Shown in pieces: positions 19,368 through 55,339 of a DNA stretch of 64,000 nt (position 1 is its first letter; every line of letters starts with the position of its first letter). The stretch covers positions 4,036,169-4,100,168 of the forward strand of contig NC_087386.1 in assembly GCF_963675165.1 (NCBI RefSeq), read 5' to 3'. The translations under genes and the position numbers were made by a program. Source of the DNA: Halichondria panicea (lineage: Eukaryota; Porifera; Demospongiae; Suberitida; Halichondriidae). Under the pieces are notes generated by a model, which was not told where the DNA came from, did not search any database, and was given only the letters and a program-made list of their open reading frames with translations.

Positions 19368-22300
19368 TTCCTCCCCCTTTAAGTAGGGGAGGGTACATTA
19401 AGCGTTCGACTGGGCGGCGATCTCGTCTTGGGTAGGTCTTTCGCTGAGGTGGTGAATTGCGAGGTGATTCGATCGATGATTCACTTCCAGTCATTTCAGC
19501 TCTACTTGTGAAATACTCGAATGGGTTTTCTTCTTCTGTGTCTGCAAACTGACGGTCACGCATCTGATCGATGTGTCTGACAACAACGTTCCCATTCGAC
19601 AGCTTAACTTTATACATAGTCGGTCCAAGTATACTTGCAATCACCCCTGACATCCATTTCTTCGATGAGAGATAGTCTCTCACAGTGACAGTTTGTCCCA
19701 ATGTGAATGACCTCAATTTGGAGTGCTGGTCATGGTATTTCTTCTGTTCAAGTTGCTTGTCCTGCACAGTGGTTACTACATCCGATTTGAGCAGATCGAG
19801 TTTGGTACGGAATTTCCTTTGTAAAAAGAGTTCACTTGGTGAACGACCAGTAGTTGCATGCGGAGTTGCTCGATACCTTCCCAAAAATGTACTGAGTCTA
19901 GTGATTAGAGTGTGTCCATCATTTTCACTAGCTTGCATGGCATTCTTAAATGTCTGCACGAATATCTCGGCCAAACCATTTGTTGATGGGTGATAAGGCG
20001 CACTCCTTATGTGCTTGATACCTTGCTGTTTCATTGCTGTTTCGAATTCCTGTGAGGTAAACTGAGGGCCATTGTCTGAGACAAGTTGTTCGGGCAGACC
20101 ATATCTTGAAAAGAATGTAAAGAGAGCTTCAATGGTCAGCGGTAGTGCTTGACATTATGATTACTTCAGGCCACTTTGAGTGTGCGTCCACGATTATTAA
20201 GAACATCTTTCCTTGAAAGGGTCCAGCAAAGTCAATGTGGATTCGTTTTAGTGGTGCCGTAGGCCATTGCCATATGTGCAAAGGTGCTGAGGGGGGATTT
20301 AGTTTGTGTTCCTGACACGGTTTACAGGACTTAGATTGACTTTCAATGTCTTGATCTATTCCTTTCCACCACATATAACTTCTGGCGAGGGCCTTCATTC
20401 TCTGAATTCCTGAATGGCCTTCATGCAGAGTTTTGAGCACTTGTGCTTGGAGAGATTTTGGAACGATTACTCTGATTCCCCATAGTAGGCAGTCAGCCTC
20501 AATAGATATTTCATCTTTTTTAGAGTAGTAGTGTTTGAGCTCGTCTGGGACTTGAGTTGGCCATCCATCTCTTGTGTATCTTAGCACTTTGCTGAGAATT
20601 GGGTCCAACTTTGTGGCTTGTTGAACATCCTTGGAGGTTACTGGCAAAGACAGAATTTGAGAAATGTTGAAAATACGCACTCCTTCTCCTCCCACATCAG
20701 AATCCTGCATCACTGGTAAGGGTAGCCTGGAGAGACCGTCCGCATTGCTGTGAGATTCTGTTGGTTTATACTGTATCTCGTAGTTGTACGCCGAGAGCAA
20801 GAGTGTCCATCTCTGTAGTCGTGCAGTGGCCAATGTGGAAATTCCTTTCTAGGCTCCGAAAATCGCAGTGAGTGGCTTGTGGTCAGTTATCAGGGTGAAT
20901 TTTCTGCCATAGAGATATTGGTAAAATTTCTTGACACCGAATATAAGTGAAAGAGCTTCTTTTTCAAGTTGAGAGTAATTCTTTTCACTTGGTGTGAGAG
21001 TGCGTGAAGCAAATGAAATTGGTTTCTCACTTCCATCTGGGAGGTGTGAGATGACTGCTCCTATACCGTAGGCTGAAGCATCTGCTGCCATTTGAAGGGG
21101 TAGCTCAGGATTGTAATGGGTGAGGACATCCGCTGAAACCAATTGATCCTTGGCGTCTTGAAATGCTCGCGAACAGGTCTCAGTCCATTCCCACCTCCTG
21201 TTAGCTTGCAGTAGCTGATTTAGTGGATGGAGCAGACTTGCCAGGTTGCATATGAATTTCCCATAGTAGTTGATTAGTCCTAGAAATGAACGTAATTCCT
21301 GGATATTTGTTGGTTGAGGAGCATTGACTATTGCGTCGACCTTGTGTGAGAGTGCTCGAATGCCTTCCCTGTCAATCTGATGACCTAGATACTCCACAGA
21401 ATTTGTCATAAACTTGCACTTGTCCTTCAACCGAAAACCATGTTTTTCGAGTCTGGATAGCACTTCATTGAGGTTGTTCAGGTGGTCGTCCTCGCTATTG
21501 CCCGTCACCAGAATGTCATCAATGTAGCAAACAACATTAGGTACCCCTTGCAGAATAGTGTCCATGAGCCGTTGGAATATGGCTGGAGCAGAAGCAATGC
21601 CAAAAGGTAGACGTGTGTACTGATACAGGCCTTGATGCGTATTGATTGTGACATATTTTCTGGAGGACTCATCAAGTTGGAGTTGTAGGTAGGCTTGACG
21701 AAGATCCAGCTTAGTGAACTTGTGTCCATTTGCTAGAGTGGCAAACAAATCTTCAGGTTTGGGTAGTGGATATTGATCCACAGTGAGAACTTGATTTATG
21801 GTGACTTTATAATCTCCACATAACCGAATCTTTCCTTCAGGTTTTGGTACTGTCACAATAGGTGTAGCCCAATCACTAGAGTCAACTTTTTTAATGACTC
21901 CGTGCTTCTCAAGTCGATCTAATTCCTGTCCAACAGCATCCTTGAGAGCAAACGGCATTGGTCGGGGCTTGAAGAATTTTTGGTGTCGCCTCTGCTTGCA
22001 CATGGAGAGTAGCTTGCTGTGGTTGGATGGTTCCCAGTTCATCTTTGAATAAAGTGTCATGTCGATCCAGTAGTTCCTTGAGACCGAGTGAAAGATTTCT
22101 GACAGTGGCAATGCGCTGCCAGTTAAGTCGAATGTATTTCAACCAGTTTCTTCCAAAGAGATTAGGGCCATTTCCGGTAACTACAATCAGTGGTAGTTGT
22201 GCACTCTGTTTTTCGTATGTCACGTTTACATTGAACTGTCCAACAATCTTGAGTGGTTCATCAGTGTAGGTCTTGAGAATGAGAGTACTTTTCTTGGGTT

Positions 22301-25624: not shown

Positions 25625-26966
25625 GTCAGTGACAGACTCTAGCAGAAAGTTTACCATACCGGCGGTATTACCATTACCCTATGGTAAACACCACGTACTT
25701 CAGTTTCCATAATTATACACGGGCAAGTCCCTTGTCACATAAGACGAGGTTCCACTGTGCTATATCTGTATAAACAATAATTCTGATACATAACTGTCTA
25801 TGTGTATATACAGGTCTGATCGTCCAGGAAGGCCGAGGTCCACTGTTACCATTGACGAAATACTGGAAATACGATCACTTCATTACAAATGGAATAAAAT
25901 TGCGTCTATCTTGGGAATATCAAGAGCAACTTTGTACAGACGATTAGAAGAAAATGGAAGATCCTCACAGGATGGGTCGATGTTGGATGATAATGAGCTA
26001 GATGATGTGATCAGTGGTATAAAAAGAGATCACCCGAATGATGGGGAACGACTTGTCTGCGGCCACTTAAGAGCAAGGGGATTAAAAGTTCCTTGGCAAG
26101 CTGTCAGGGATTCCATTCATCGAACGGATCACGAAAATGTCATTGCGCGTCGCTGTACTGTTGTTAGACGCCGTGTGTACAGTGCCCCTCACCCAAATTA
26201 TGTGTGGCACATTGATGGCCATCATAAACTTATAAGGTGGCGTTTTGTGATCCATGGTTCAATTGACGGCTTCTCCCGCACTATCATTTATGTGGCATGC
26301 ACCGACAACAATCGTTCAGAAACTGTTCTCCAGCTCTTCACTGACAGTATCAGGCACTATGGTGTCCCTAACCATGTGAGATCAGATCACGGTGGAGAAA
26401 ATGTGGAGGTATGGCGGTACATGATTGCTGCACACAATAATGATTACAGTTGTGTAATCACCGGGAGTTCTGTGCACAATGAAAGAATTGAGAGACTCTG
26501 GTGTGACGTTCATAGATGTGTTGGTTCCGTGTTTTCCCAAATCTTCCGATCTTTGGAAAGTGATGGACTTCTTGACCCCTTAAATGAAGTGGATCTTTAC
26601 TGTTTGCATCTGATCTTCCTGCCACGAATAAACAAATGTATTTCAGGTTTCGTAGATAGTTGGAATCATCATCCTTTATCTACTGAAGGCAATCGAACTC
26701 CATACCAACTTTTTTTTGAAGGTATGCTGCAAACAAGCGAGCAAGAACTTGGTACTACAGCTAATGTGGACACTTCTGATGTTGAAGGAGAACGTGTATC
26801 AGTGCCAAGAATTAAGTTTATACCATGCTCAATTTTAAAACAAAGTTTCCAAACTATAAATCCCCTTGAAGAAGCAGAAGATAATGGTAGAGGACTCTTT
26901 GTCGACGTACTTCATACTACAGGACAGCATCTTAATGCTACTTGCTCACAATGTATTTGGATGTAA
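25491..26966 (+). pseudogene. rve-type DDE integrase/transposase, one nonsense codon
   Basis: Exon 1 is 25491-25624 (start MAEGVNVGVLSSALAV, GT donor at 25625). Exon 2 is 25814-26966 (acceptor tatacag). The splice keeps frame (AG|G) and gives about 428 residues. Exon 2 begins with an HTH-like segment (ASILGISRATLYRRL), followed by the rve core: WHIDGHHKL (first Asp, about residue 183), VRSDHGGENVEV (second Asp), and NERIERLW (Glu). It should cut and join the element's ends in the nucleus. Exon 1 contains an in-frame TAG at 25566-25568, where the twin exon of the HECT gene has CAG, so this copy is probably inactive unless splicing avoids the stop. The gene converges on HECT; the two stop codons are about 150 bp apart. 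Confidence 0.85.
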
Positions 26967-27812: not shown

Positions 27813-28102
27813 TGTCATGAGCCCCCGGCTGCGCCAAGGCTCGCAGTTGACTTAAACAGAACACGATCCAAGTAAATAGGAGTCTTCTATAACTTTAACA
27901 TGAGAACAGAACTGCACATAACTCCTTCTCTAGCTATTTTATACAGACACATGCACCAAAAATCTAGATTGTTCTACAACACCCACAAAGTTCTAGAATA
28001 CTGAACCTCTGGAAGGTTCTTAACACATAAAGTTCTGGTCCTTTACCACGGAATGTTCTAGTTCTTAATTAAACCAGTCACAGAATGTTCTAGTTCACCA
28101 CA
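27813..28102 (-). repeat. 3' LTR of the Gmr1-type element
   Basis: 290 bp, TG...CA ends. It matches 32801-33090 except for one C/T difference (near 28064 versus 33052). The tract just inside (28103-28117) reads agaaggggagaggaa on the minus strand, a good polypurine tract. Confidence 0.95.
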
Positions 28103-30015
28103 TTCCTCTCCCCTTCTCCTGCGACATTCATGTCGGGGTGAGAAATAGGCAATCGGGAGAGGGCGTCTGCGTTTTGGTTGTCTTTGCCCTTCCGATAGCG
28201 GACAGAAAAGTTGAATGGTTGCAAGGCCAGGCTCCATCGGATGAGACGATTGTTGTTCTCTTTCATTCGCTCCATCCATTCCAGGGAGTGATGGTCCGTC
28301 TGGATTACAAAGGGTCGTCCTAGGAGGTAGACTCGGAAAGCTTCAACAGCGAGTTTAATTGCCAGGCACTCCTTCTCCACGGTCGAGTAGTGTTCTTCTC
28401 GGTTAAGGAGTTTTCGGCTAAAATATCCTACTGGGTGTTCAGCGCCATCCCCATCAGTTTGGCTGAGGACTGCCCCTACACCTCGCTGGGATGCATCGGT
28501 TTGGAGGACAAAGGCTCTCGAAAAGTCTGGATTGTGCAATATCGGCTGTGACAACATCTGCTTCTTCAGGGTCTGGAATGCTGTCTCACAAGCTGGTGTC
28601 CATATTACTGTTGAGGGTAAATTCTTTCGGGTGAGGTCGGACAGGGGGGCGGCAATGGAGGCGAAATCCGGGATAAACCTCCTGTAATATCCAGTTAATC
28701 CAAGGAAACAACGCACTTCTTTTTTCGTTTTTGGTCTTGGAAATTCCATCATTGCCTCTAGTTTTGTTTCCTCTGGTTTCACCACTCCACTCCCAACGAC
28801 ATGGCCTAGGTATATACAGTGGGCCATCCCAAACTGACATTTGCTGAGCTTCATGGTTAGGCCGGCATCTTGGATCCGCTCCAGCACCTGACGTAAATGG
28901 TAGAGGTGGTCCTTCCAATTGGAGCTGTAGATTACAACATCATCTAGGTATGCTGCAGCATATTCTTCCAGTCCTTGCAGTACCCGGTCCATTAGCCTCT
29001 GGAAAGTTGCCGGTGCGCCTTGCAAGCCAAATGGCATAACATTGAAGTGATAAAGACCAAAAGGGGTTACAAATGCCGTCTTCGTCTGGGCTTTCTTGGT
29101 GAGGGGTACCTGCCAGTATCCTTTTGTCAGATCCAAAGTGGTGATGTACTTAGCTTGGCCTAGTCTGTCGATCATCTCGTCAATGCGGGGCATTGGGTAT
29201 GCATCTGCCTCAGAAACTCCATTTAGATGTCGATAGTCAACGCAGAATCGCATAGTACCATCTTTCTTCTTCACCAATACAATAGGGGCTGACCATTCAC
29301 TTGTCGAAGGCTCGATCACTCCATGTTCTAGCATTTCCGCAATTTCTTTCTTCACTGTCTCTCGATAGGCATGAGGTAAGCGGTAAGGAGGCAACCTGAT
29401 TGGGCGTGCCGTTCCGGTTTCAATGTCGTGCTCAATGATTGCTGTCCGTCCTGGGGTGTCTCGCATAGCTTCTACGAATTCGTTGGTTAGCTGACGGAGG
29501 TCATACTGTTGGGTCTCTTCCAGTCGCTTGTCCAGGACAATCTTCTTTGTGATACCGTCACTTTCTTTCCACAACGGGAGTTCATCCGTTAATTCTCCTC
29601 TCTCTTCCTCCGCCAAGAGGTTTGGGATCGTGGGGGTATTCCACTTTCGCAACATGTTGATGTGGAAGACTCTTCTCCGCTTCTTGTGATCGAACATGTC
29701 CACTTCATATGTCACCGGTGAAATCACTTTCTTCACGGGGTAGGGACCTTGCCACTTCGCTAGGAGTTTGTTGGTCGAGGAAGGTAGAAGGACTAGTACG
29801 TTGTCCTCTACCTGCAGCTGCCTCTCTCGTGCATTTCGATCATACCACTTCTTTTGGGTTGTTTGGGCCTTCTTCAGATTCTCACAAGCTAGCTCCGACA
29901 TCTTGGCGAGTTTTTCTTGAATCGTCAGGACATAAGAAACGACACTCTGTAGATTTCTTGCTAGATTCCCACGATTCTTTGAGCACATCAAGAGGTCCTC
30001 GCACCTGCCTTCCAT
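28090..30015 (-). CDS. Reverse transcriptase-RNase H ORF of the Gmr1-type element
   Basis: 641 codons. The first part (about 30000-29640) is really the tail of the integrase, with WQGPYPVKKV and RRRVFHINMLRKW, a chromo/SH3-like C-terminus. The RT follows with SEWSAPIVLVKKKDGTMRFC, the active site AAYLDDVVIYSS (about 28960-28920) and FLGLTGYYRRFIPDF. RNase H has LQTDASQRGVGAVLSQ, VEKECLAIKLAVEAF and TDHHSL. The stop codon overlaps the LTR edge. The N-terminal ATG is probably not the natural start: the protein is likely made by frameshift from the upstream ORF, or a single-base indel separates them. Confidence 0.9.
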   Translation of the reverse strand: MEGRCEDLLMCSKNRGNLARNLQSVVSYVLTIQEKLAKMSELACENLKKAQTTQKKWYDRNARERQLQVEDNVLVLLPSSTNKLLAKWQGPYPVKKVISPVTYEVDMFDHKKRRRVFHINMLRKWNTPTIPNLLAEEERGELTDELPLWKESDGITKKIVLDKRLEETQQYDLRQLTNEFVEAMRDTPGRTAIIEHDIETGTARPIRLPPYRLPHAYRETVKKEIAEMLEHGVIEPSTSEWSAPIVLVKKKDGTMRFCVDYRHLNGVSEADAYPMPRIDEMIDRLGQAKYITTLDLTKGYWQVPLTKKAQTKTAFVTPFGLYHFNVMPFGLQGAPATFQRLMDRVLQGLEEYAAAYLDDVVIYSSNWKDHLYHLRQVLERIQDAGLTMKLSKCQFGMAHCIYLGHVVGSGVVKPEETKLEAMMEFPRPKTKKEVRCFLGLTGYYRRFIPDFASIAAPLSDLTRKNLPSTVIWTPACETAFQTLKKQMLSQPILHNPDFSRAFVLQTDASQRGVGAVLSQTDGDGAEHPVGYFSRKLLNREEHYSTVEKECLAIKLAVEAFRVYLLGRPFVIQTDHHSLEWMERMKENNNRLIRWSLALQPFNFSVRYRKGKDNQNADALSRLPISHPDMNVAGEGERNVVN

Positions 30016-32722
30016 ACATTAGTTCAAAGGGAGAAAATCCGGTTGATGACTGGGGTACTTCACGGTAGGCAAACAGCAAATACGGAATTAGTTGGTCCCA
30101 GTCTTTTCCTTCTTCATTGGCGGTTTTGCGAAGCATGGACTTCAAGGTTTGATTGAAACGTTCTACTAATCCGTCCGTTTGAGGGTGGTAAGGGCTGGTC
30201 TGGATCGGCTGTATCTTCAACAAGCGGTAGAGCTCTGCTAGCAATCCAGATGTGAAATTAGCTCCTTGATCAGTCAGGATCTCTCGGGGTATGCCTACTC
30301 TTGAGAAAAACATTATCAGCTCCTTGGCTACGTGCTCAGCATCTATGGTTCGTAGGGGGACAGCTTCTGGGTACCTTGTACTATAGTCGCAAATCACCAG
30401 GATGTAGCGGTTTCCCGTGCGGCTACGAGGAAGAGGACCCACGATATCCATAGCAATACGTTCAAACGGCTCTCGAATGATGGGTAGGGGAATCATTGGT
30501 ACACGCTGCTTTTTCCCCTTTGATGTCCTCTGACACTCTTCGCACGATTGGCATAGCTTCTTCACATCTTCGAATACTGTCGGCCAATAGAACCGCTGGA
30601 GAATCCGTTCTACGGTCTTTCGCTGCCCCATGTGGCCAGCCATTGGAATATGGTGAGCAAGGGACATCACTAGGCTACGGCACGACTCTGGTAGCACCAA
30701 CTGCTGTATCGGGCTGCTGTCTTCGCCATGGGGTGAGATCCATTGACGGTAAATCAGTCCATTTTCTTCGTGAAAGACCATCTTGCTGGCTCCAGTAGCA
30801 CCGTTCATTGCTTCTCGAATACCTTTAAGCGTGACATCTTCTTGCTGCATTCGTCGCAACTCAATGGGGGACAGGTCCAAGGGGTGTGTCTGCTTGTTTT
30901 GAGCCACTTCACGCCTCTGCTGCCTCTTCTCTCTCCTAGTTAGTTGCTGGTGTTTCTTTACTTCGAGAAAAAGATCTGGGTCCATCTCTGCGCCAAGTGG
31001 CATCTCAGCAATTTGGTCATCGGTTACGTCCAAGTCCGTTAGCATCTCGGCTTGTTGGTCATCAGGAGTGTTGGGAGTGTTTGGAACCATCTTGGCCACT
31101 TGGTCATCAGGCATCTCATCAGTGGATGTGTCGGACGTGGTAGTAGGCTGTTTGATTCCCTCCTGTTGTTGTATCTTCTCCAGTTCCACTCTTTCTTCTT
31201 CGTTTTTCTTGGCCTGGGCTCTGGTCATTACGGCAAGGGCTTCTTCAGTCCGAACTGTCCCTTCCTTATTCTGTAACATTTCGAGTAGGTCTGCCACATC
31301 TCGTCCGAGTAGCACTGGTACTGGGAGGGTCTTTGAAATTGCTGCTTCGATTTGGTGTCTTTCTTCTCCGAGGCCAATTTCTACACTTACGAGTGGATAT
31401 TCTCGAACGTCTCCGTGAGCACATCGGATGCGAACTCGTCCTAGTTGCTTCTTCTGTGGTAGCAGATCACTTCTCACCATTGAACGGGCACAACCGGTGT
31501 CAAGGACAATCTCGTCTACTGCTTTTCCCTCCACTGTGCCGGATCGTGTAATCTGGGGGTTGATTTTCTTCTCCAACTTGTCCTCATTCATGTACACCAA
31601 TTCAGTTTCTTCTGTGAATAGATTTGACTTGCTAGGGCAATTTGCGGCAATATGTCCGGTCTCTTGGCAGTTGTAGCATTTGATTTTGTTCCATTCCATC
31701 TTTGTTTTGTTGGCCTCCCTTCGTCCTTTCTCTGTCCTTCGATCAGCCATAGCCTTCCTACAGTCTTTGGCAATATGGCCCTTTATCTTGCAGTAGTGGC
31801 ACGTTTTGGTTGCTCCGCTCTCACTGCTGGGCCGACGAGTCTCTCGTGGCGGTAACTCCTTAGGATCAAGTTGACGGGAATGAACATAGCTGTCGGCCAG
31901 TCTTCCCGCTTCTTCTCCGGTAGTGGGCTTTCGGTCGCCCAACCAAATTCTCAGGTCTCTAGGCATCCCCTCCATCAGTTGCTCCACTACAATTTTCTCC
32001 TTGAGTGCTTCCATCGTGGTGCAGCCTGCTGTCCATTTCTCCAGGAGGTCTCTCAGTTTTGTTGCGAGCTCCAGGTACGCCTCCCCTTCGGCCTTCTTCG
32101 TAGTTCGGAAGCGTTTGCGGTACGTTTCTTCGCTAATATCATAGCGTTGCAGTATAGCTCTTTTCACGTCCTCATAGTTCTTAGCTTTCTCTACATCCAT
32201 TGCAGCAAAGGCCTGCTGGGCTCTCCCCATAAGTTGTGGCGCTAACTTATGGGCCCAGTGCTCTTCTTTCACTTCAAAGGCTGTCATCAGTCGCTCAAAC
32301 GTAGTCAAGTATGCCTCAATGTCTTCTTTTTCCGTGAGTTTGGCTAGGTTCAAATGTCGTAGATCTTCCGCTCGTTTCGCCTTGATCTCCTCTCGACTCT
32401 GATTTAGGTCCATCCAGTTTCTCATCATCTCCACCTGACTTTGCATCATTTGCATTCTTTGTTCACTTTCTCTCTCTCTACGTTCCTGTTCTTCTGCTCG
32501 TTCTCGCTCTCGTTGTCTGTTCTCTTCTTCTCTTGCTCTGGCCCTTTCCGTTTCTGCCTCGTCACGGCTCCGGCGATCTTCCAGCAGCATCTGTAGAAGT
32601 TCAGTCACTCCAGTTCCTGTCTCTGCCATCGTTATTACAGCTTGGTCACTCTCCACGTCTTGTTCTGTTTCGTTCGCCGATTCTCCTAGGTTGTAGATTC
32701 TGCCAGTCCTTGTCACCGACAT
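29882..32722 (-). CDS. Gag-protease-integrase ORF of the Gmr1-type element
   Basis: 946 codons from an ATG 79 nt inside the 5' LTR. A coiled-coil stretch rich in Arg/Glu (residues about 60-120) precedes the capsid-like region. Two zinc knuckles follow: CHYCKIKGHIAKDC and CYNCQETGHIAANC. Protease active site: VLDTGCARSMV. Integrase: H-H-C-C zinc region (HHIPMAGHMGQRKTVERIL, CQSCEEC), then core MDIVGPLP, LTDQGANFTSG and YHPQTDGLVERFNQ with the D, D and E residues. The ORF leaves the integrase frame at SKKSTE and ends 30 or so codons later, while the continuation is in the next ORF at offset +1. Confidence 0.92.
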   Translation of the reverse strand: MSVTRTGRIYNLGESANETEQDVESDQAVITMAETGTGVTELLQMLLEDRRSRDEAETERARAREEENRQRERERAEEQERRERESEQRMQMMQSQVEMMRNWMDLNQSREEIKAKRAEDLRHLNLAKLTEKEDIEAYLTTFERLMTAFEVKEEHWAHKLAPQLMGRAQQAFAAMDVEKAKNYEDVKRAILQRYDISEETYRKRFRTTKKAEGEAYLELATKLRDLLEKWTAGCTTMEALKEKIVVEQLMEGMPRDLRIWLGDRKPTTGEEAGRLADSYVHSRQLDPKELPPRETRRPSSESGATKTCHYCKIKGHIAKDCRKAMADRRTEKGRREANKTKMEWNKIKCYNCQETGHIAANCPSKSNLFTEETELVYMNEDKLEKKINPQITRSGTVEGKAVDEIVLDTGCARSMVRSDLLPQKKQLGRVRIRCAHGDVREYPLVSVEIGLGEERHQIEAAISKTLPVPVLLGRDVADLLEMLQNKEGTVRTEEALAVMTRAQAKKNEEERVELEKIQQQEGIKQPTTTSDTSTDEMPDDQVAKMVPNTPNTPDDQQAEMLTDLDVTDDQIAEMPLGAEMDPDLFLEVKKHQQLTRREKRQQRREVAQNKQTHPLDLSPIELRRMQQEDVTLKGIREAMNGATGASKMVFHEENGLIYRQWISPHGEDSSPIQQLVLPESCRSLVMSLAHHIPMAGHMGQRKTVERILQRFYWPTVFEDVKKLCQSCEECQRTSKGKKQRVPMIPLPIIREPFERIAMDIVGPLPRSRTGNRYILVICDYSTRYPEAVPLRTIDAEHVAKELIMFFSRVGIPREILTDQGANFTSGLLAELYRLLKIQPIQTSPYHPQTDGLVERFNQTLKSMLRKTANEEGKDWDQLIPYLLFAYREVPQSSTGFSPFELMYGRQVRGPLDVLKESWESSKKSTECRFLCPDDSRKTRQDVGASL

Positions 32723-44669: not shown

Positions 44670-46979
44670 ATGGCAGCCACACACTATGGAACTCTCAACA
44701 ATTACAGACCAGACCAAGAGTCTATCAAGACCTACCTGGATCAGGTAGACCTCTACTTCACGGCGAATACAGTCCCTGATGATAAGCAAGTACCTATTCT
44801 CCTCAGCTCCATTGGTGCAACGACCTACAGTCTTCTATGTGACTTGCTTGCACCTGAGGCTCCCAAATCGAAGACAAAGGGAGAAATATTTGCTGCACTA
44901 CGGAAGCACTACGAACCGACACGAGCGGTGATCGCAGAACGTTTTCATTTTCAAAAAAGGGATCAAGTCCCTGACGAATCTTTAGCAGAATACGATGCAG
45001 CTCTACGCAAGCTGGCAACACACTGCAATTTTGGGGCGTATCTCACTGAAGCCCTACGTGACCGTTTCGTTGCAGGACTCCGAAGCGAAGCAATGCAAAG
45101 AAGACTATTAGCCGAAACAGAACTTACTTTGAAGAGAGCAATGGAAATCGCACAGGGAATGGAAGCAGCAGAAAGCAACACCAGAGCACTCAAGGCCAGC
45201 AACCCCTCCATCAAGAGCATACAAAGCAAAAGGAGACCGCAGCCAAACCAACCTTGTTACCGCTGTGGAAAGTCGAATCACTCTGCAGCTGATTGCCGTT
45301 TCAAGGATGCAGAGTGTCACTCATGTGGAAAGCAGGGACACATAGCACCAGCCTGCCGCTCCAACCCACCCTCTCAGTTCAAGAAGACAGAGAAGAGACG
45401 ATTCAAAACTCACCTAGTGGAACCAGATGGGAACAGCTCGACTGACTCAGAAGCTGACACTTACCACCTATACCGATTGACCGAGCCTTCTACACAGCCG
45501 ATCACAGTTACAGTCAAGATCGAGGATACTCCACTCAAGATGGAAATCGATACCGGAGCTGCAATATCTATTATCTCTGAGGCCACCAGAAAGGCCAAGT
45601 TCTCTAAATTCAAGCTGCGTAAGTCAAATATTTTGCTAAAGACATATACAGATGAGGCTATGATGGTAACGGGTCAGATTAATGTGTGTGTTAATTATGG
45701 AGAACAGGTGGCTCGGCTGGTGCTGGTGGTGGTTGCTGGAAGTGGACCAAGTCTTTTTGGACGCAATTGGCTGAAGTACCTCCAGTTGGACTGGAAATGT
45801 ATTGCAACTGTCAAATCTCCCCCTGCAGGTACACTAAAGAATTTGTTACACGAATACGATTCATTGTTCAAGGACGAGTTAGGTACTGTGACCTCACACA
45901 AAGCCACTCTCAGAGTACGGCCAGATGCTACTCCTCGGTTTTTCAAACCACGTCCTGTTCCTTATGCAACCAAAGAGGCTATTGGAGATGAATTGGACCG
46001 CATGGAGCAACAAGGTATCATCCAGAAAATACCTAGCAGTGACTGGGCAGCACCGTTGGTCGCAGTTCCCAAGAAAGACGGACGTTTTCGACTCTGCGGC
46101 GACTATAAAGTGACTATCAACCAAGACCTTGAAGTTGATCAGTACCCCTTGCCTAAACCCGAAGACCTATTCGCAACACTAGCAAATGGCTCCCTTTTCA
46201 CTAAGCTTGATTTGTCACAAGCGTATCTACAGGTCGAACTCGATAAGGACTCTACCAAATACGTGACTATCAACACCCATCAAGGGTTATACCAGTTCAG
46301 CCGACTTCCTTTTGGCGTGGCGTCAGCCCCAGCAATATTCCAAAGACTGATGGACACCATCCTACGTGGAGTGCCTCACGTTATCTGCTACTTAGACGAT
46401 CTGTTGATAACAGGAGTGGATGAAGAAGACCACCTACACAATCTGGAGCAAGTCCTCAAACTTTTTATGGAACACGGGTTGCGATTGAAGAAGGAAAAAT
46501 GTATCTTTTTGGCCAAGTCGGTAGAATATCTTGGTCATCAGATCAGCAAAGAGGGAATCCAAGCTCTTCCAAGTAAAGTTGATGCTATTGCACAGGCTCC
46601 AGAACCAAAGAATGTTCAAGAACTTCGCTCCTTCCTCGGGTTGCTGAACTACTACGGAAAGTTCATCAAGAATCTCTCTAGCATCCTTTACCCAATCAAC
46701 CAACTTCTGCAAGCGAGTCATAAGTGGGAATGGACACAGGAATGTCAGGAAGCTTTTACAGAAGCAAAGAAACAACTTACATCATCTGATGTGCTCACCC
46801 ACTATGACCCGGACCTACCAATCAACATGGCTGCGGATGCGTCAGCCTACGGCATTGGAGCCGTTATTTCTCATGTACTACCAGACGGGACTATGCTCAA
46901 CTCGAGAAAGAAGCACTGGCATTGGTATTTGGTACCAAGAAGTTTCACCAGTATTTGTATGGCAGGAAATTCACGTTAA
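44670..46979 (+). pseudogene. Gypsy B gag-PR-RT-RH (5' part of polyprotein)
   Basis: Starts MAATHYGTLNNYRPDQ. Gag zinc knuckles: CYRCGKSNHSAADC and CHSCGKQGHIAPAC (about residues 195-230). Protease: MEIDTGAAISII. RT: SDWAAPLVAVPKKDGRFRLC, VICYLDDLLITG, FLGLLNYYGKFIKN. RNase H begins with MAADASAYGIGAVISHVLPD and then breaks. Element A continues there with EKPISFASRTLTPSEKN, which is missing here, and frame is lost (about 46888). The residues after that point are not native. Apart from this the frame is open over 735 codons. Confidence 0.9.
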
Positions 46980-48562
46980 TCACTGATCACAAACCTCTGA
47001 CAGCTATATTTGGCCCAAAGAAAGGAATACCGTCCCTAGCAGCTGCTCGTCTCCAACGTTGGGCAATTTTTCTCTCAGGTTATGATTACAATATCCAATT
47101 CAAGCCCACTCAAGCACACAGCAATGCTGATGCATTATCACGTCTCCCCTTGCCAGTACAAGATTCATACGAAACGGCTGACATTAATGCTATTCACACT
47201 TTCAATGTGGCTCAAATCGAAGCTCTTCCTGTAACATCTCAGCAGGTGCAGACGGCTACCCGACGTGACCCAACCTTAAGCAAGGTGTTAAAGTATGTCA
47301 AATCAGGATGGCCACAGAAAGTGACACCGGATCTACAACCATATTTCAACCGCCGTCTTGAAATTGGCATCGAAAGTGGTTGCTTGATGTGGGGAATTCG
47401 CACAATCATTCCACAGAACCTGCATGCAAAGACCCTTCGTGCTCTCCATGAGAACCACCCTGGAATGTCCCGAATGAAGGCTATTGCCCGCAGTTACGTA
47501 TGGTGGAGTGGACTCGATAAAGACATCGAAAACCAAGCAAAAGCGTGCCTATCGTGCCAGGAACAAGCCTCTAAACCTGCAGTAGCACCACTCCATCCTT
47601 GGGTTTGGCCAAACAGCCCATGGAAAAGGATCCATATTGACTACGCTGGTCCATTCTTGAACAAAATGTTTCTAGTGGTTGTAGACGCCCATTCCAAGTG
47701 GCCAGAAGTGATTCAGATGTCTTCCACTACGTCTCAAAACACGATCGAGGCACTGCAAGCACTATTTGCTCGGTATGGACTACCAGAACAGATTGTTTCC
47801 GACAATGGTGCACAATTCACATCCCAAGAATTTAGCGATTTTGTTCAAGCCAATGGCATAAGACACATACGAAGTGCTCCATACCATCCCTCCACGAACG
47901 GCCAAGCTGAACGATTTGTACAAACGTTCAAAAGAGCCATGAAAGCTGGAGAGAGAGAAGGACTGAGTTTGAAAACAAGATTGGCTCAGTTTTTACTGTC
48001 ATACCGCTCAACTCCACATGCTACCACTAACGTCTCACCGAGTGAACTGTTCCTTCAAAGAAAAGTACGTACACGATTCGATCTCCTCAAACCAAACACA
48101 GAGGGAAACGTATCTGACAAGCAGATGAAACAGAAACAGCAACATGACAAACATGCTAAACCAAGGACGTTCTCTGTTGGTCAACAAGTAATGCTCAAAG
48201 ATTTCCGAACAAACGGTACATGGCTTCCAGGAAGCATTGTACAACAGACAGGACCAGTATCTTACAAAGTGGAAATTGGTGATGGCAGGATACTACGTCG
48301 ACATATCGACCACATATGTGATAGAACTCATTCTCTTTCCACCACCGAGTCGTCACAAGACGATATAACAAATCCAAACGATTTCGACGATACGGCAGCT
48401 CACAAGGATTTGCAAGATTTTGAAGTTTCTCCTGATCAGTCAACTGATCCGTCTCCGACCCCACCTGATGAGTCACCCTCGACTGGTGCATTAACAGCTC
48501 GACAATATCCGCAAAGAAATCGCAACAGGCCTGATCGATATGGTGGGTACACTAACATTTAA
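46922..48562 (+). pseudogene. Gypsy B RNase H end and integrase (3' part of polyprotein)
   Basis: Resumes the pol frame, with FHQYLYGRKFTLITDHKPLT (RNase H, His of TDHK). The integrase zinc region has HENHPGMSRMKAIARSYVWW and CLSCQEQ. The core has IDYAGPF, VVVDAHSKWPEV, IVSDNGAQFTS and YHPSTNGQAERFVQTFKRAM, giving D, D and E. The C-terminus GQQVMLKDF...ILRRHIDHIC is the usual gypsy tail. The ATG at the start of this ORF is not the natural start. Confidence 0.9.
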
Positions 48563-49494: not shown

Positions 49495-50039
49495 CGTACG
49501 TCACCGTATTATCACCACTTTTTGTCCAAACTTAAGGGGGGGGTATACCATTTTGTACTGTATTTTTGGTATCCATCATAACTTCCTCGTTTTGCATCCT
49601 CTGCTTATAAAATTGACATCAGCATGCAGCTCATTCGTTGTTCTTTCTAATGCTATGCTTATGTTTTGCATACTTACTCTCCAAGGTGAAGTACTGCCAC
49701 CTGATGTGGTTTTTTCTATATATTCATAACTCAAACCACAATTGGACTAACCCCTTCCCACTTTGTGTACACTTAAAACTAACCACAAATCTATTGATTG
49801 AATGATGGATTTTTTTTATCTTTATACAGAAGAGAGTGCCAATAAATTTTTATAAGGAACTTACAAAAGATTGATACATATACATTGTATAGATTGTATA
49901 CTCAATCAGAATCAAAATTCCATCATTCATTTGAAAGAGTAGGAAGAGAGCTTTCCAATGGTATCTTAAAGTTGGCTCAAGTCCAAAGATTGAGCTAGTA
50001 ATTTTTTTTTCAATATAAAAAACAAGTTTTTCACAAAAA

Positions 50040-52022
50040 TCAAAAGTTTCCTGCTAAGTACGTAGTACCCTCTTCATCAATGTGTTCTTGCTCTGTACGT
50101 TTATCCCTGAGATGTAATGTCTGCCTCCTCTTCTTTGTTACTACCTCCATCTTTGACTCTGACCTCTTGATGCGTTCATAATCTTCAGCCTTCAAATAGG
50201 AGGTGCAGAGTGGGCCAACAGGAATACCAAGCTGGTCCATAAGCTTCACTAAGGCCTGTTTTCCACTGTTGAAGACGATAACAGCCTGGCCAGTTGCAGC
50301 CTGAATGGTGTCCAAACCACAATACTCAGTTTTTGGTGCGCGCGCCCATACAAAAGCATTGAAACTTTCGTTTCGATTTTGTGTAGCTCCGAGCAAGCAC
50401 TTCTCAAGGAGCTTTGGCGAACACAATGATCGCCATTGAGGTTCCAGATAATCCTTGTAGTCTGCTGAAATTGTGGTGTGATGGCGTGGTGTATCTTCTC
50501 CATTAGCCACAGCACGCTAGAATTTGCACCAGCTTTCCTTGCCTTTGGGGCAACAATAATGGCAAGGGTTGTCATCAGTTGAGAGTGAGTGATAAAATAT
50601 CGCCCAACAAGCATCTGTCATATTCTCAAGATCTCCAGTGTTGCCCCGTATTGCATTTCCATAGTATTGTTGTAGAATATGAATCATGTCATCCAGCAAT
50701 TTACCTTCTGGCACCTTCACATTTTCCAACTCATTCTCTAAAATCTTCAACTTCTTCTCCCCTTCTCTCTGCTCTCCGACTATCTTGTCTTTTCCTGTGC
50801 CTTTCTTAGTACCTCTCCTTCTGCACCCATACTGCTGCTTCACCTCCTTTATCTTGTCCTTCAATGTCTTCTCCTTCTTCTTTGCGTCAACTCTGTCTCT
50901 CTTAAATAACGTCCTGGCCAGCTTCAACTTGGGCGTCACTCTCTTCTGCACATGACCTACGCATTCGTGCTTGATGATTGCAACATCCCCGTATGGTTGA
51001 TGCTGGTTCAGGTGCGTGAGTGACTTGCAATCCCCATCTGAAATCATCTGGGTGTAGCGAAGGTGGTATTTTAACACAGACCGATTCCAAATCTTGAGGA
51101 CTCCAGCACATTCCATTGCCGGAGAAGAACCCTCATGGTTAATCGCACACTTTGTCCGATGGCCTTCCATCCACTTGACATATTGCTCTGAATCTTCTCC
51201 CCACCTGGTTTTTTGCCGTTCACAAGCATTGCACCTTTTTGACAGAATTTCATAGTCCAGCACCTGCCCACTTTCCCAGCTGATAACCACCACAATACCA
51301 TATGTAGCTGTAAATCCACGCTTCGACCATGTTCCATCACATGTCACAGCAATATCGATAACTTCTGTGGGCTCGGTGCCATGCAAAACATGCAGATATC
51401 TAGCAGCAGCAAGCATATCATCCAATGCAGCTTCCTTAGATGCAGAACCAATAGCCTGGTTATGAGAAGAGAATGCATGTTTGGTGACAGGCGGAAGCAT
51501 ATCCATTATTCCACAGAATGACGCCATGCTAGAATGTCCTCGGCCTATGAATCTCATAGCTAGGACGGATCTGGCATTCAACGCCTTGGACTTGTGAGCG
51601 TAAGGGTTAGACATCACAAGCTCATAGTCACATTCATCATTCGTGCAAACAGTTTTCATATGTGATACCAACCCTCTTCTTGAAGCTAAACTCTCCGAGA
51701 GGGTAAGAGGAGATTGACAGGAAGGACATACACCATTATCATTCAATTCCTTCATATATTCCTGACAGTCGACGAGGCGGTACCCCTGAAGTAAATGCTT
51801 AGAGTCTAACTTGCATGTTTGGGTGTCTTGGCCATCAGCTGTGGAGGTGCTGGGGCTACCAGAGATTGCGAACTTCTTGCCACTGGATGTCTGAACAGGT
51901 TGAGGCCTCTCAACTGGAGCTGGAGTCTCAGCTTGATCTGGTGATGTCTGTGGAGGCTGCTTCCACTTTGGTGTGCCTTTAAATCCTTTACAACGCCTTT
52001 TCCTGCCATAGCTAGCAGCCAT
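50040..52022 (-). pseudogene. DDE transposase of the TTAA element, one in-frame stop
   Basis: Starts MAASYGRKRRC, basic. The N-terminal zinc ribbon has CPSCQSPL and CTNDECDYEL (about residues 95-135). SVLAMRFIGRGHSSMASFCG leads to the catalytic domain: AVTCDGTWSKRGFTATYGIV (first Asp), MISDGDCKSL (second Asp), and NRNESFNAFVWARAPKTEYC (Glu). KHECVGHVQKRV is a family landmark. A coiled, Lys/Glu-rich insert lies between the second Asp and the Glu. The reading is one frame of about 660 codons broken only by TAG at 50519-50517, right after KESWCKF. It diverges from the RecQ gene across a 243-bp intergenic region with promoter module 1. Confidence 0.8.
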
Positions 52023-52082
52023 TGCATGTCAATGAAGTTGTATAGCTAGCTAGATCTTATGAAAAAGAAATGTGGCAGGTGG

Positions 52083-52159
52083 GTTCAACCTAGCTGGGCG
52101 GAGCCCGGCACCCGTTCCCAACGGGTGGCCGGGTGACACGCTTATATAGGATTTGTACT
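52083..52159 (+). promoter_or_regulatory. Divergent promoter module 1 with stem-loop and TATA
   Basis: Reads ggttcaacctagctgggcgg, then a stem-loop (52104-52133, cccggcacccgtt / aacgggtggccggg with one bulge), then gcttatataggatttgtact with a TATA-like core at 52142-52148. It lies between the transposase start (52022, minus) and the RecQ start (52266, plus). An inverted copy is at 54139-54212. Confidence 0.65.
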
Positions 52160-52265
52160 GCTGCACTGAGAAGTGCAGCCCAATCAGATTGCAGTATTGC
52201 AAGTGGTTGGTTAACACCCACTTAGCTAGGTGGGTGTGCAGCTGGGCGGAGCTGCCTTGAGCAAA

Positions 52266-53706
52266 ATGGAGAAAGTTACACAAGTTGTCACAGAAGCTGC
52301 TAACGAGCTTGGAAGTAGTCACTTCTTTTCTGAGAGACAGAGATGTCTTTGCTGTATTGCCTACTGGATTTGGAAAGAGCCTTTGCTATGCTTGTTTGCC
52401 TGCAGCATTTGACAAAATATTGGAGAAGGAGAAAGGTCATTCTATTGTAGTAGTAGTAGTTACTCCAGTCCTCTGCTGGCCATCATTCATGATCAGGTAT
52501 GTAAGGCTAGATAGAACATACATATAATTATACGTACATGTGCATATGAGCTGTTTACACATAACTAGATCATTCTAAGCTGGAGGCTTTTATTCTATTA
52601 TTATATAGGTAGCCATCTATTGTTCTAAAGGCATCTCTAGCACATATGTCTCGGGCGAGATGTCTGATGCAGCTACAATGGATGCGATCTTCCACGGAAA
52701 GTATCAGCTAGTATTCTTTACACCTGAAATGATCATCAGCAAGAAGCATTGGAGAAGACTTCTGGGGGGAGATGTGTATGCTAATAGACTCAAGGCTTTG
52801 ATAATCGATGAAGCTCATTGTGTGAAGAAATGGTATGTATTTGACTCATCGTTTATTATTAACATGTGTACCAATAATATTATTGCAGGGGTGAGACTTT
52901 CAGGCAAATGCTGTTGAGAATTAGAGAAGTGCGCAGCCTCATTCCAACATCAGTTCATGTGATGGCGCTAACAGCAACAGCTACCCGAAGTGACATTTCA
53001 TTCATTTCTCGTATTGTTGGCCTAAGAAACCCATTTGTCATTACGAGAGTCCCAGTAATCCCAAATTTGATTTATGCTGTTGGATTGTTCAAAAGTATAC
53101 CAGAGACATTCCAAAACTTGGCCCAGAAATTGGTAATCGAGAGAAACAAGTTTCCCACAACAATCATATATGGACGTTCTTTTGGTGTGTGGTGACATGT
53201 ACCTCTTCTTTAAGGATTACCTTGGAGCTGCATTCACAAATCCTGATGATGCACCTGATCTTCCTGAATTTCGCCTCGTGGACATGTTTACAAGTGTCAC
53301 TGATCCAGCCCATAAATCTGAAATCATTCGTTTATTTAAGGGTGATGGCAATCTTCGCATTGTTGTAGCTACTATGGAATTTGGTATGGGTGTTGATTGT
53401 CCCAACATTCGGTAAATCATTCATGTTGGCCTGTCAGACGATATCAGTAGCTATGTACAAGAGACTGGTAGAGCAGGTCGAGATGGTAAACCATCACGTG
53501 TAACCCTTTTGAAGGCAAGAATTTACCATCAAGTTGATAATGAGATTAAAGAATATGCTTCAAACTTCAACACTACAGATTGTAGAAGGGATAGTCTTTT
53601 CCGAAATATTGACAATTACAAACATGTTGATCTCGGTTTCAATTGCTTGTGCTGTGATATTTGTTCTAAGTCATGTTTATGTGGACAGTGTGACCCTAAG
53701 ACTTAG
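52266..53706 (+). pseudogene. RecQ-like DNA helicase, broken
   Basis: Start MEKVTQVVTEAANELG. Exons: 52266-52496, 52609-52832, 52889-53706. Motifs in order: VFAVLPTGFGKSL (Walker A), LLAIIHDQ, KALIIDEAHCVKKW (DEAH box), HVMALTATAT (motif III), RIVVATMEFGMGVDCPNI and SYVQETGRAGRDG (motifs V, VI), then RecQ zinc Cys in CLCCDICSKSCLCGQC. An ATP-driven 3'-5' helicase would be expected. Defects: frame changes near 52310 (with loss of the Q-motif region), 52470 and 53190, and TAA at 53413 inside NIR-IIHVG. It converges with the small gene at 53749-53994. Such a gene inside a transposon suggests help in unwinding or repair at excision sites (inference). Confidence 0.8.
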
Positions 53707-53748
53707 TTACTTCTTTCAGCTAATTACAAATTTTATTTTCATTATTAC

Positions 53749-53994
53749 CTGTGCTTCAAGAAAGCTGCTATATCTACCGAAACATTTCCTGCACATTTTG
53801 GGCAATCTGTTTTTATCACTGCCATTTACAATACTGTTAATGTCGACATCAGCACACATCTGTTCTTCCTCATTCTCCAGTAGCATTGTCCACAGGTCCA
53901 ACACTTCCTTTCCAGCTGGACCATCAAGAGCTCTTCTGTTACCAGGCCTTGATAGCTCATCCCCACATCCAAAACATTGTAGCACTTGGGCCAT
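53749..53994 (-). CDS. Cysteine-rich (ZAD-like) protein, first exon
   Basis: MAQVLQCFGCGDELSRPGNR, then ... MCRKCFGRYSSFLEAQ. Two C-x2-C pairs separated by about 60 residues recall ZAD-type zinc domains, which dimerise. The exon ends at a GT donor (gtaataatg, 53748-53741), and the next exon was not found before the RecQ 3' end, so the gene may be truncated. It starts about 150 bp from promoter module 2. I do not recognise the exact family. Confidence 0.5.
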
Positions 53995-54138
53995 TCTTGC
54001 TCAGTACTTTATTTATTTAGTAGCAAAGTCATGTTGTTCAGTGCCAGCCAGTGTGGTGCAGTGCGGTGCATATTGCGTTTAACACCCACTTAAAATGATT
54101 ATATTCATGATGCTCCAAGCAGTATTACATAACACACA

Positions 54139-54212
54139 AGTACAAATCCTATATAAGCATGTCCCCCGACCTCCCGTCAGGGACGGTCGGGCTCCGCCCA
54201 ACTAGGTTCAAC
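54139..54212 (-). promoter_or_regulatory. Divergent promoter module 2 (inverted copy of module 1)
   Basis: On the minus strand: ggttgaacctagttgggcgg, a stem-loop (about 54164-54191, cccgacc(g)tccc / ggga-ggtcggg), then gcttatataggatttgtact. Flanks are nearly the same as in module 1 but the stem bases differ and still pair. It lies between the cysteine-rich gene (minus, start 53994) and the Ras-like gene (plus, start 54303). Confidence 0.65.
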
Positions 54213-54302
54213 CTGCAGACCAGCCCCACCTCTTTTCACATGTAGTCCTCTATCTATTTATGTGAAACTGTGCTGTAACAAAAGATTATTAGAGAGAAGC
54301 AC

Positions 54303-54830
54303 ATGACAAAAATGGAGTATAATATTGTGGTGATTGGCGCCAACTTGGTGGGAAAAACTTGTCTTATCAACAGGTTTGTACGAGGTACCTGTGTCTTAGA
54401 TAATTATGTTCCAACACTTAAAGACTCTTACAGGAAGACCATTTGCTTTGATGGGGAAAGCTGCTTGTTGGAAATATTGGATACTGCTGCATGTGCTGGG
54501 GGACAATCTCTTTCTGTGTCAACAATATCTAAAATCAGAAAAGGAGATGCCTTTGTCTGTGTATTTGCAATAGACTGTGTCAATTCATTTCACATTGCAA
54601 TTGACCTTGCAAAAAAATAAAATCTATCAAGTCTGAGCAGAATATAAAGGCATCGATAATGATGGTTGGAAATAAGTGTGACATTAGCTCAGAGAGACAG
54701 CAAGTGACCCTGAAAATGGTTCGTACTATTCCAAGTGACAAGTGACATCCGTTTCTTCGAAGCTTCAGCAAAATGTGATAGAAATATTTCTGGGGCCTTT
54801 CGTTATGCAATTCAAGATATTCAAGTTCAA
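54303..54830 (+). pseudogene. Ras-family small GTPase carried by the transposon
   Basis: MTKMEYNIVVIGANLVGKTC gives the G1 P-loop (GxxxxGKT). YVPTLKDSYRK matches the Ras effector/G2 region. ILDTAACAGGQ is the G3 region with Ala for the usual Gly of DTAG. After a frame change in an A-run at about 54612 come MMVGNKCDISSER (G4, NKxD) and FFEASAKCDRN (G5) in other frames. So all five G motifs are recognisable, but at least two indels break the protein. No C-terminal CaaX box was found. Ras-like cargo in a DNA transposon is unusual. Loss of the G3 glycine would affect GTP hydrolysis in canonical Ras (family knowledge). Confidence 0.75.
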
Positions 54831-55068
54831 AAGCAGCAAAGAGAAGAACAAAGAGAACAAAAAACTGACAAACAGTGTTGCACGATATGTTAGTTACATA
54901 ATTTCTAACATAACGTTTTTTCATATCACCCCCATATCCATATCATTGGCATTATGAATAATAGAAAAGCTATGAAACAGCTTACAAGAGAAGTCTTACA
55001 AATGAAGTACAAAAAAAAGAAAAAATCTTTTTTTACAAAATGTTCCCAAAAAATGGTATACTTCCCCC

Positions 55069-55339
55069 TTAACATTCCTTGAAAAATTTTGATAATACAC
55101 TGATTTTTTTTAAACAGTTCCTTTAATTGGATATACAGCAACATTCTCTATTAAAAAAAAAGACACTGTCAGCAACTTGAGAAGCAACATTGCTATATTC
55201 TGCTGAGTAAGTCAAATGGTGATAATAGTATCACCATATGAATTTTGGGTTGAATTGAAGCTGAAAATAACAATATCAATACCGAATAAGCACATCAAAT
55301 AGTAGCTAGCTATAGTGTAAATGCCTCAAGACTCAAAGT
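55069..55339. other. AT-rich spacer
   Basis: Between the TTAA element and the pogo-like relic. No gene or clear repeat seen. Confidence 0.4.

Follow-up and report, generated by a model that had tools for sequence, protein, structure and literature searches.

Whether a single type of DNA transposon can own both a RecQ-like helicase gene and a Ras-like GTPase gene is the question raised by an element at positions 49536-55068 of a window of 64,000 nucleotides, the whole stretch analysed here, from the sponge Halichondria panicea (contig NC_087386.1, positions 4,036,169 to 4,100,168 of the forward strand). An initial annotation had described a DDE transposase, a RecQ-like helicase, a cysteine-rich protein and a Ras-like GTPase as the genes of one undescribed transposon type, with RecQ and Ras as a joint accessory set. 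Open reading frames (ORFs) confirm the four coding regions in that order and on those strands, and TTAA does lie directly beside matched 19-base-pair (bp) ends, at 49532-49535 and 55069-55072, the two ends agreeing at 17 of 19 positions. Nevertheless, the four genes do not form one transposon type, as the stretch at 52091-54204 is a separate repeat that has inverted repeats and a 9-bp duplication of its own. The locus is very probably the product of two nested DNA transposons, a Kolobok-like outer element with Ras as cargo and a non-autonomous AcademH-like inner element, the set of Ras plus RecQ being an accident of nesting. The nesting is delimited by three features:

52082-52090, no strand: GGTTCAACC, left copy of the 9-bp duplication that flanks the nested element (empty versus filled site)
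52091-54204, no strand: nested 2,114-bp AcademH-like non-autonomous element (genome search; own inverted repeats at about 52091-52159 and 54139-54204)
54205-54213, no strand: GGTTCAACC, right copy of the 9-bp duplication that flanks the nested element (empty versus filled site)

The genome of H. panicea was searched over 131 Mb in 39 contigs (C1, C2, C3 and C12 below are contig labels); with the whole 5.5-kilobase (kb) stretch as query 40 of 350 first-look candidates were scored, so that the copy numbers given are minimum values. A second copy of the outer element, on C12, is without the nested insert and has kept one intact target site. Its two outer parts are directly joined with one GGTTCAACC at the joint, whereas the window has GGTTCAACC on either side of 52091-54204. 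The two copies thus show the target site empty and filled, the insert having entered the outer copy between its two divergent genes. Moreover, the stretch at 52091-54204 has at least 21 other single-piece, near-full copies in the genome, 94-100% identical and without outer parts. The RecQ and cysteine-rich genes are thus those of a nested element from a different family, and the C12 copy has neither; copies of the ends that lack RecQ were what the initial annotation itself had named as telling against its proposal. The order and strands of the four genes could be accommodated by a single type owning all of them, from which the C12 copy lost RecQ and the cysteine-rich gene by deletion, but inverted repeats and an exact 9-bp duplication belong to the middle part itself, which recurs many times elsewhere without the outer parts, and the C12 copy shows one clean target site at its joint. 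Refuted by the empty site, such a four-gene type is extremely improbable, and the case illustrates how nesting can imitate a new composite gene set.

The family of the inner element is multicopy and ordinary, and the window holds a deleted copy of it with a dead helicase. With one mismatch allowed, ends of the family occur 234 times in forward and 225 times in reverse orientation in the genome, against 0 for the control; the pairs among those listed span from about 58 bp to over 5 kb. An exact 9-bp duplication was found at 24 of 30 loci (the window and 23 others), five loci having no paired ends in the fetched stretch. The coding content of the window copy, together with the gene of a full-length relative (locus L071) to which it was compared, is as follows:

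52285-53706, plus strand: broken, intron-containing RecQ-like helicase gene of the nested element (ORFs, Pfam, comparison of copies)
53716-53994, minus strand: cysteine-rich ORF, remnant of the first exon of a DUF6589 gene (38% identity over 77 amino acids to L071:4868-5284)
L071 1871-5284, minus strand: DUF6589 (PF20231) gene of L071 (eight-exon model, Pfam)

The window helicase is matched in Pfam by two DEAD pieces (E 2.5e-6 and 5e-5) and a weak Helicase_C piece (E 0.003), and in addition to its introns has a frame break and a stop at 53413-53415. This stop is common to 20 of 28 fetched copies (a sense codon in 5, unreadable in 3), which indicates that no functional helicase was encoded by the subfamily itself as it spread, its mobilisation presumably being in trans. 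The cysteine-rich ORF has no Pfam match, but its likeness to the first exon of the DUF6589 gene implies that the inner copy kept RecQ and that exon and lost the DUF6589 core. In the 5.4-kb form L071, RecQ is open on one strand and the DUF6589 gene lies on the opposite strand, the last exon of the modelled gene carrying the domain (E 2.5e-36); the eight-exon structure is our own model, from which the annotated protein P0001 differs at two joints and by an early end. The pairing is not peculiar to this copy. For a count across the genome, 84 of 118 helicase places (a hand count) and 63 DUF6589 places were entered and merged into 51 loci; the helicase places left out were mostly short pieces, also of copies already listed, and their omission could only reduce the number of pairs. 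A RecQ match lay within 3 kb at 36 of the 51 loci, tail to tail in all 36, with none that near at the other 15, against a chance expectation of about 0.005 per locus. Sponge DUF6589 proteins have conserved GDN and GDQ motifs. DUF6589 is uncharacterised in Pfam, no mention of it was found in the open-licence papers searched, and the tail-to-tail pairing with RecQ gives it a likely role: it is probably the transposase of AcademH-type elements.

The 9-bp duplications and long inverted repeats of the inner family would also suit a Mutator-like element that had captured a helicase and a zinc-finger exon, since maize Mu makes 9-bp duplications (PMC2774946, available portion). However, full-length relatives with the same ends encode DUF6589 and RecQ, which are paired at most of the loci counted, and no Mutator-type (Mutator-like element, MULE) domain was detected by Pfam among the seven L071 ORFs scanned, so a Mutator-like origin appears very unlikely. 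The assignment to AcademH rests on a comparison with published descriptions. According to the accessible text of PMC10045372, AcademH makes duplications of 9 or 10 bp and AcademX of 3 or 4, the difference being tied to the helicase and the nuclease; RecQ is mentioned in Academ in the part available of PMC3627910, and the title of the AcademH paper (Kojima 2020), as cited in the available parts of PMC10799480 and PMC10045372, names animals and fungi. By its features the nested element matches a non-autonomous AcademH-like element, with a helicase gene, 9-bp duplications and an animal host (PMC10045372 and PMC10799480, as available). It differs in that the window's inner copy is internally deleted and its helicase stopped; the DUF6589 protein of the full forms is a putative counterpart of the Academ transposase.

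Other members of the inner family take several forms. Seven remnants of 58-68 bp (L041 and L087-L092, on C1, C2 and C3) consist of family ends placed back to back, with an exact 9-bp duplication in six and one mismatch in the seventh; their inner joints differ within the end hairpins, and either abortive repair may have left them behind or they may themselves be tiny mobile units. Five copies of 289-322 bp on C1 (L043, L047, L061, L063 and L068) resemble miniature inverted-repeat transposable elements with the family's ends, four of the five having exact 9-bp duplications; three of them share a nearly identical duplication and may therefore be duplicated stretches. A 9.2-kb pair of ends (C1:9779770-9788977) encloses a stop-free RecQ match and DUF6589 pieces, the best of them 80% identical, and is a possible parent type of the 2.1-kb family.

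Once the insert is subtracted, about 3.4 kb remains of the outer element at 49536-55068, which comprises the following features besides its Ras gene:

49532-49535, no strand: TTAA, left target-site copy of the outer element (direct reading)
49536-49554, plus strand: left end of the outer Kolobok-like element (end-pattern comparison and genome search)
50040-50510, minus strand: outer transposase, second part, with the NESF glutamate, severed from the first part by an in-frame stop (ORF)
50517-52022, minus strand: outer DDE/RNase H transposase, first part, PF20700 (ORF, Pfam, alignment, fold of a relative)
55050-55068, minus strand: right end of the outer element (end-pattern comparison and genome search)
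55069-55072, no strand: TTAA, right target-site copy of the outer element (direct reading)

Across the 131 Mb there are four exact occurrences of the end pattern, against none of its reversed control. With TTAA and up to three mismatches it was found at six places, against three for the control, so that the two places with three mismatches are at chance level. The C12 copy has TTAA on both sides and flanking DNA different from that of the window. The termini are GGGGG, in agreement with the 5'-RR / YY-3' pattern of Kolobok, the left end of the C12 copy being partly decayed. A fragment on C2, 74% identical by BLAST, was considered as an old independent copy and dropped, as alignment identifies it as a deletion derivative of the outer element; its aligned parts are nearly identical and so give no evidence of age.

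The outer transposase matches PF20700 (E 9.8e-58) and is interrupted by the in-frame stop at 50517-50519, its second part having 60% identity to P0081 over 170 columns. Alignments were made with 25 and about 63 sequences (for the latter, 64 database rows together with the window ORF) from the best 120 of 253 relatives. Across the 25 relatives D229, D329 and D331 are invariant and C354 and H357 nearly so, and an RNase H fold was found in a modelled relative, P0106, itself without CxxH. The protein would accordingly combine, on alignment and modelling, the DDD/E residues, RNase H fold and C/DxxH motif expected of Kolobok, and the outer element as a whole fits Kolobok in its TTAA target, G-rich ends and predicted DDE/RNase H transposase. 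Kolobok lineages differ in their accessory genes, which include nucleases, a RecQ helicase and KolX, and no Ras-family gene is among those named in the available text of PMC9587614, whereas the outer element has one. KolobokH, by the same text, carries RecQ itself; here RecQ is the gene of the nested element.

The Ras gene of the outer element is read from two adjoining features:

54303-54620, plus strand: the outer element's Ras-family ORF, covering codons 1-105 (ORF, Pfam, alignment)
54621-54893, plus strand: remainder of the Ras gene in other frames, ending EASAK ... CTIC (comparison with the C12 copy)

In the window the gene (PF00071, E 6.8e-16) has the inner element on one side and the right end on the other; it stands in the same place in the C12 copy, where its end is also an ORF (L006:4499-4681), and in part in the C2 deletion derivative. 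No intron is seen, the orientation is head to head with the transposase, and the right block that holds it is 97.7% identical between window and C12. Two full copies at different loci, each with its own TTAA, indicate that Ras moved as cargo. All five Ras G motifs had been called readable, which holds in part. The product has NKCD (NKxD), EASAK (SAK), a CaaX-like end, CTIC, and an effector loop of YVPTLEDSY or YVPTLKDSY with Thr35 present, but its G1 is GANLVGKT, without Gly12 and Gly13, and a three-residue insertion interrupts G3 (DTAACAGGQ), so that DTAGQ is lost.

These peculiarities are shared with a small set of relatives. A database search with the element Ras returned 68 proteins, among which P0012 is the same gene (99%) and P0013-P0016 are 47-52% identical. 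Other rows covering at least 77% of the query have 32-44% identity, and P0071, P0078 and P0079 are short pieces of ordinary-looking Ras (50-53% over half of the query). In a tree of 36 rows the element Ras and P0013-P0016 form a clade on a long stem with support of 100/100 (100/99 in a 19-row tree), sister to canonical Ras, including that of the host, with support of 92/85; of these two groupings the clade is the firmer, because several host rows were flagged as long branches. A genome search with P0013 found only the two element copies to be close (E 4e-34 and 3e-31), the next of 15 other places being at 6e-21; 10 of these 15 Ras-family places were fetched, and all 10 lie outside the clade. 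The clustering away from host Ras that the initial annotation had proposed to look for is therefore seen among the host GTPases sampled, and its alternative of a processed host copy that had landed there, examined here as a recent copy of sampled host Ras, was rejected on the same support. Scans of viral and prokaryotic contigs for the clade found no relative.

By sequence, the best solved-structure matches of the element Ras are H-Ras and K-Ras, and it resembles these canonical proteins in most of the effector loop and the CaaX-like end; it differs in its G3 insertion, its lack of introns and its place in a transposon. The Gly12, Gly13 and DTAGQ (Gln61) of a normal GTP switch are replaced or absent throughout the clade, P0012 included. 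The effector loop of the clade, Y-[VI]-P-T-L-[EQK]-D-S-Y, is that of H-Ras with Asp33 and Ile36 changed, and Glu37 also in two rows; P0013 ends CTIS. In Ras biochemistry, such a replacement of Gly12, Gly13 and DTAGQ predicts poor hydrolysis stimulated by GTPase-activating proteins (GAPs). We infer from the sequence an atypical Ras, with poor GAP-stimulated hydrolysis and an effector surface mostly kept.

Under the nested explanation, a Kolobok-like cut-and-paste element of about 3.4 kb would have targeted TTAA and carried an intronless Ras gene as cargo. An inner AcademH-like element, for which full-length relatives presumably supplied the DUF6589 and RecQ proteins in trans, would then have landed between the divergent transposase and Ras genes of one outer copy. 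The Ras product, if made, is predicted to resist being switched off by GAPs; in place of a normal on-off switch it would be a GTP-bound adaptor or would influence host signalling.

Several observations weigh against this explanation or parts of it. The Kolobok and Academ assignments were set against published descriptions, not reference sequences; the form L071 has no 9-bp duplication (two other 5.4-kb copies of the inner family have exact ones); and an AlphaFold model of a DUF6589 protein was uninformative (mean predicted local distance difference test score, pLDDT, of 37). Two of P0013-P0016 lie on contigs of 3,748 and 3,301 bases, near the 3.4 kb of the outer element, and this is the sole link of those relatives to a transposon. 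Full copies of the outer element number only two in the genome. Ras is frameshifted in both, at different places (in the window after 105 codons), and its first 105 codons differ between window and C12 by three nonsynonymous changes and one synonymous, with no sign of selection. For a transposase relative at C1:6760284-6761503 (41% identity), one TTAA/GGGGGG end was located some 450 bp upstream of the reading frame, with no Ras there, the other end not being found within the 4 kb fetched. Ras is therefore not a fixed part of the wider transposase lineage, and its standing as an element gene holds for both full copies of the TTAA element and, in part, the deletion derivative.

The scarcity of outer copies, the frameshifts, the substitutions and the relative without Ras would all be expected if Ras were a passenger with no role: a diverged gene, perhaps of host origin in a different sponge lineage, that was caught once and is now decaying. 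This receives an even chance, for the different break points suggest that the gene was open in the common ancestor of the two copies, and P0013-P0016 are open over 136-190 amino acids with the same unusual substitutions. The opposite suggestion, that a sponge Kolobok-like lineage has long carried its own clade of always-on Ras, so that host cells behave as Ras-on and the transposon gains by stem- or germ-cell expansion, is unlikely. On either account of the Ras gene within the nested explanation, its carriage through transposition would add a signalling protein to the nucleases, RecQ and KolX known for Kolobok (PMC9587614, available text), and in titles and abstract starts of the open-licence papers searched no DNA transposon, Kolobok included, was found to be reported with a Ras or GTPase gene. 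If the clade were transposon-specific and selected, it would represent a cut-and-paste element acting on host cell signalling.

Elsewhere in the window, a 388-amino-acid ORF at 25800-26966 (plus strand) has an integrase core domain (PF24764, E 2.8e-78) and no obvious retroelement membership. Three Gypsy-like retroelements were recognised by Pfam from ORFs at 20129-22111 (minus strand), 28090-32722 (minus strand) and 44670-48562 (plus strand), and one Gypsy-like gag region combines a SCAN domain with a zinc knuckle.
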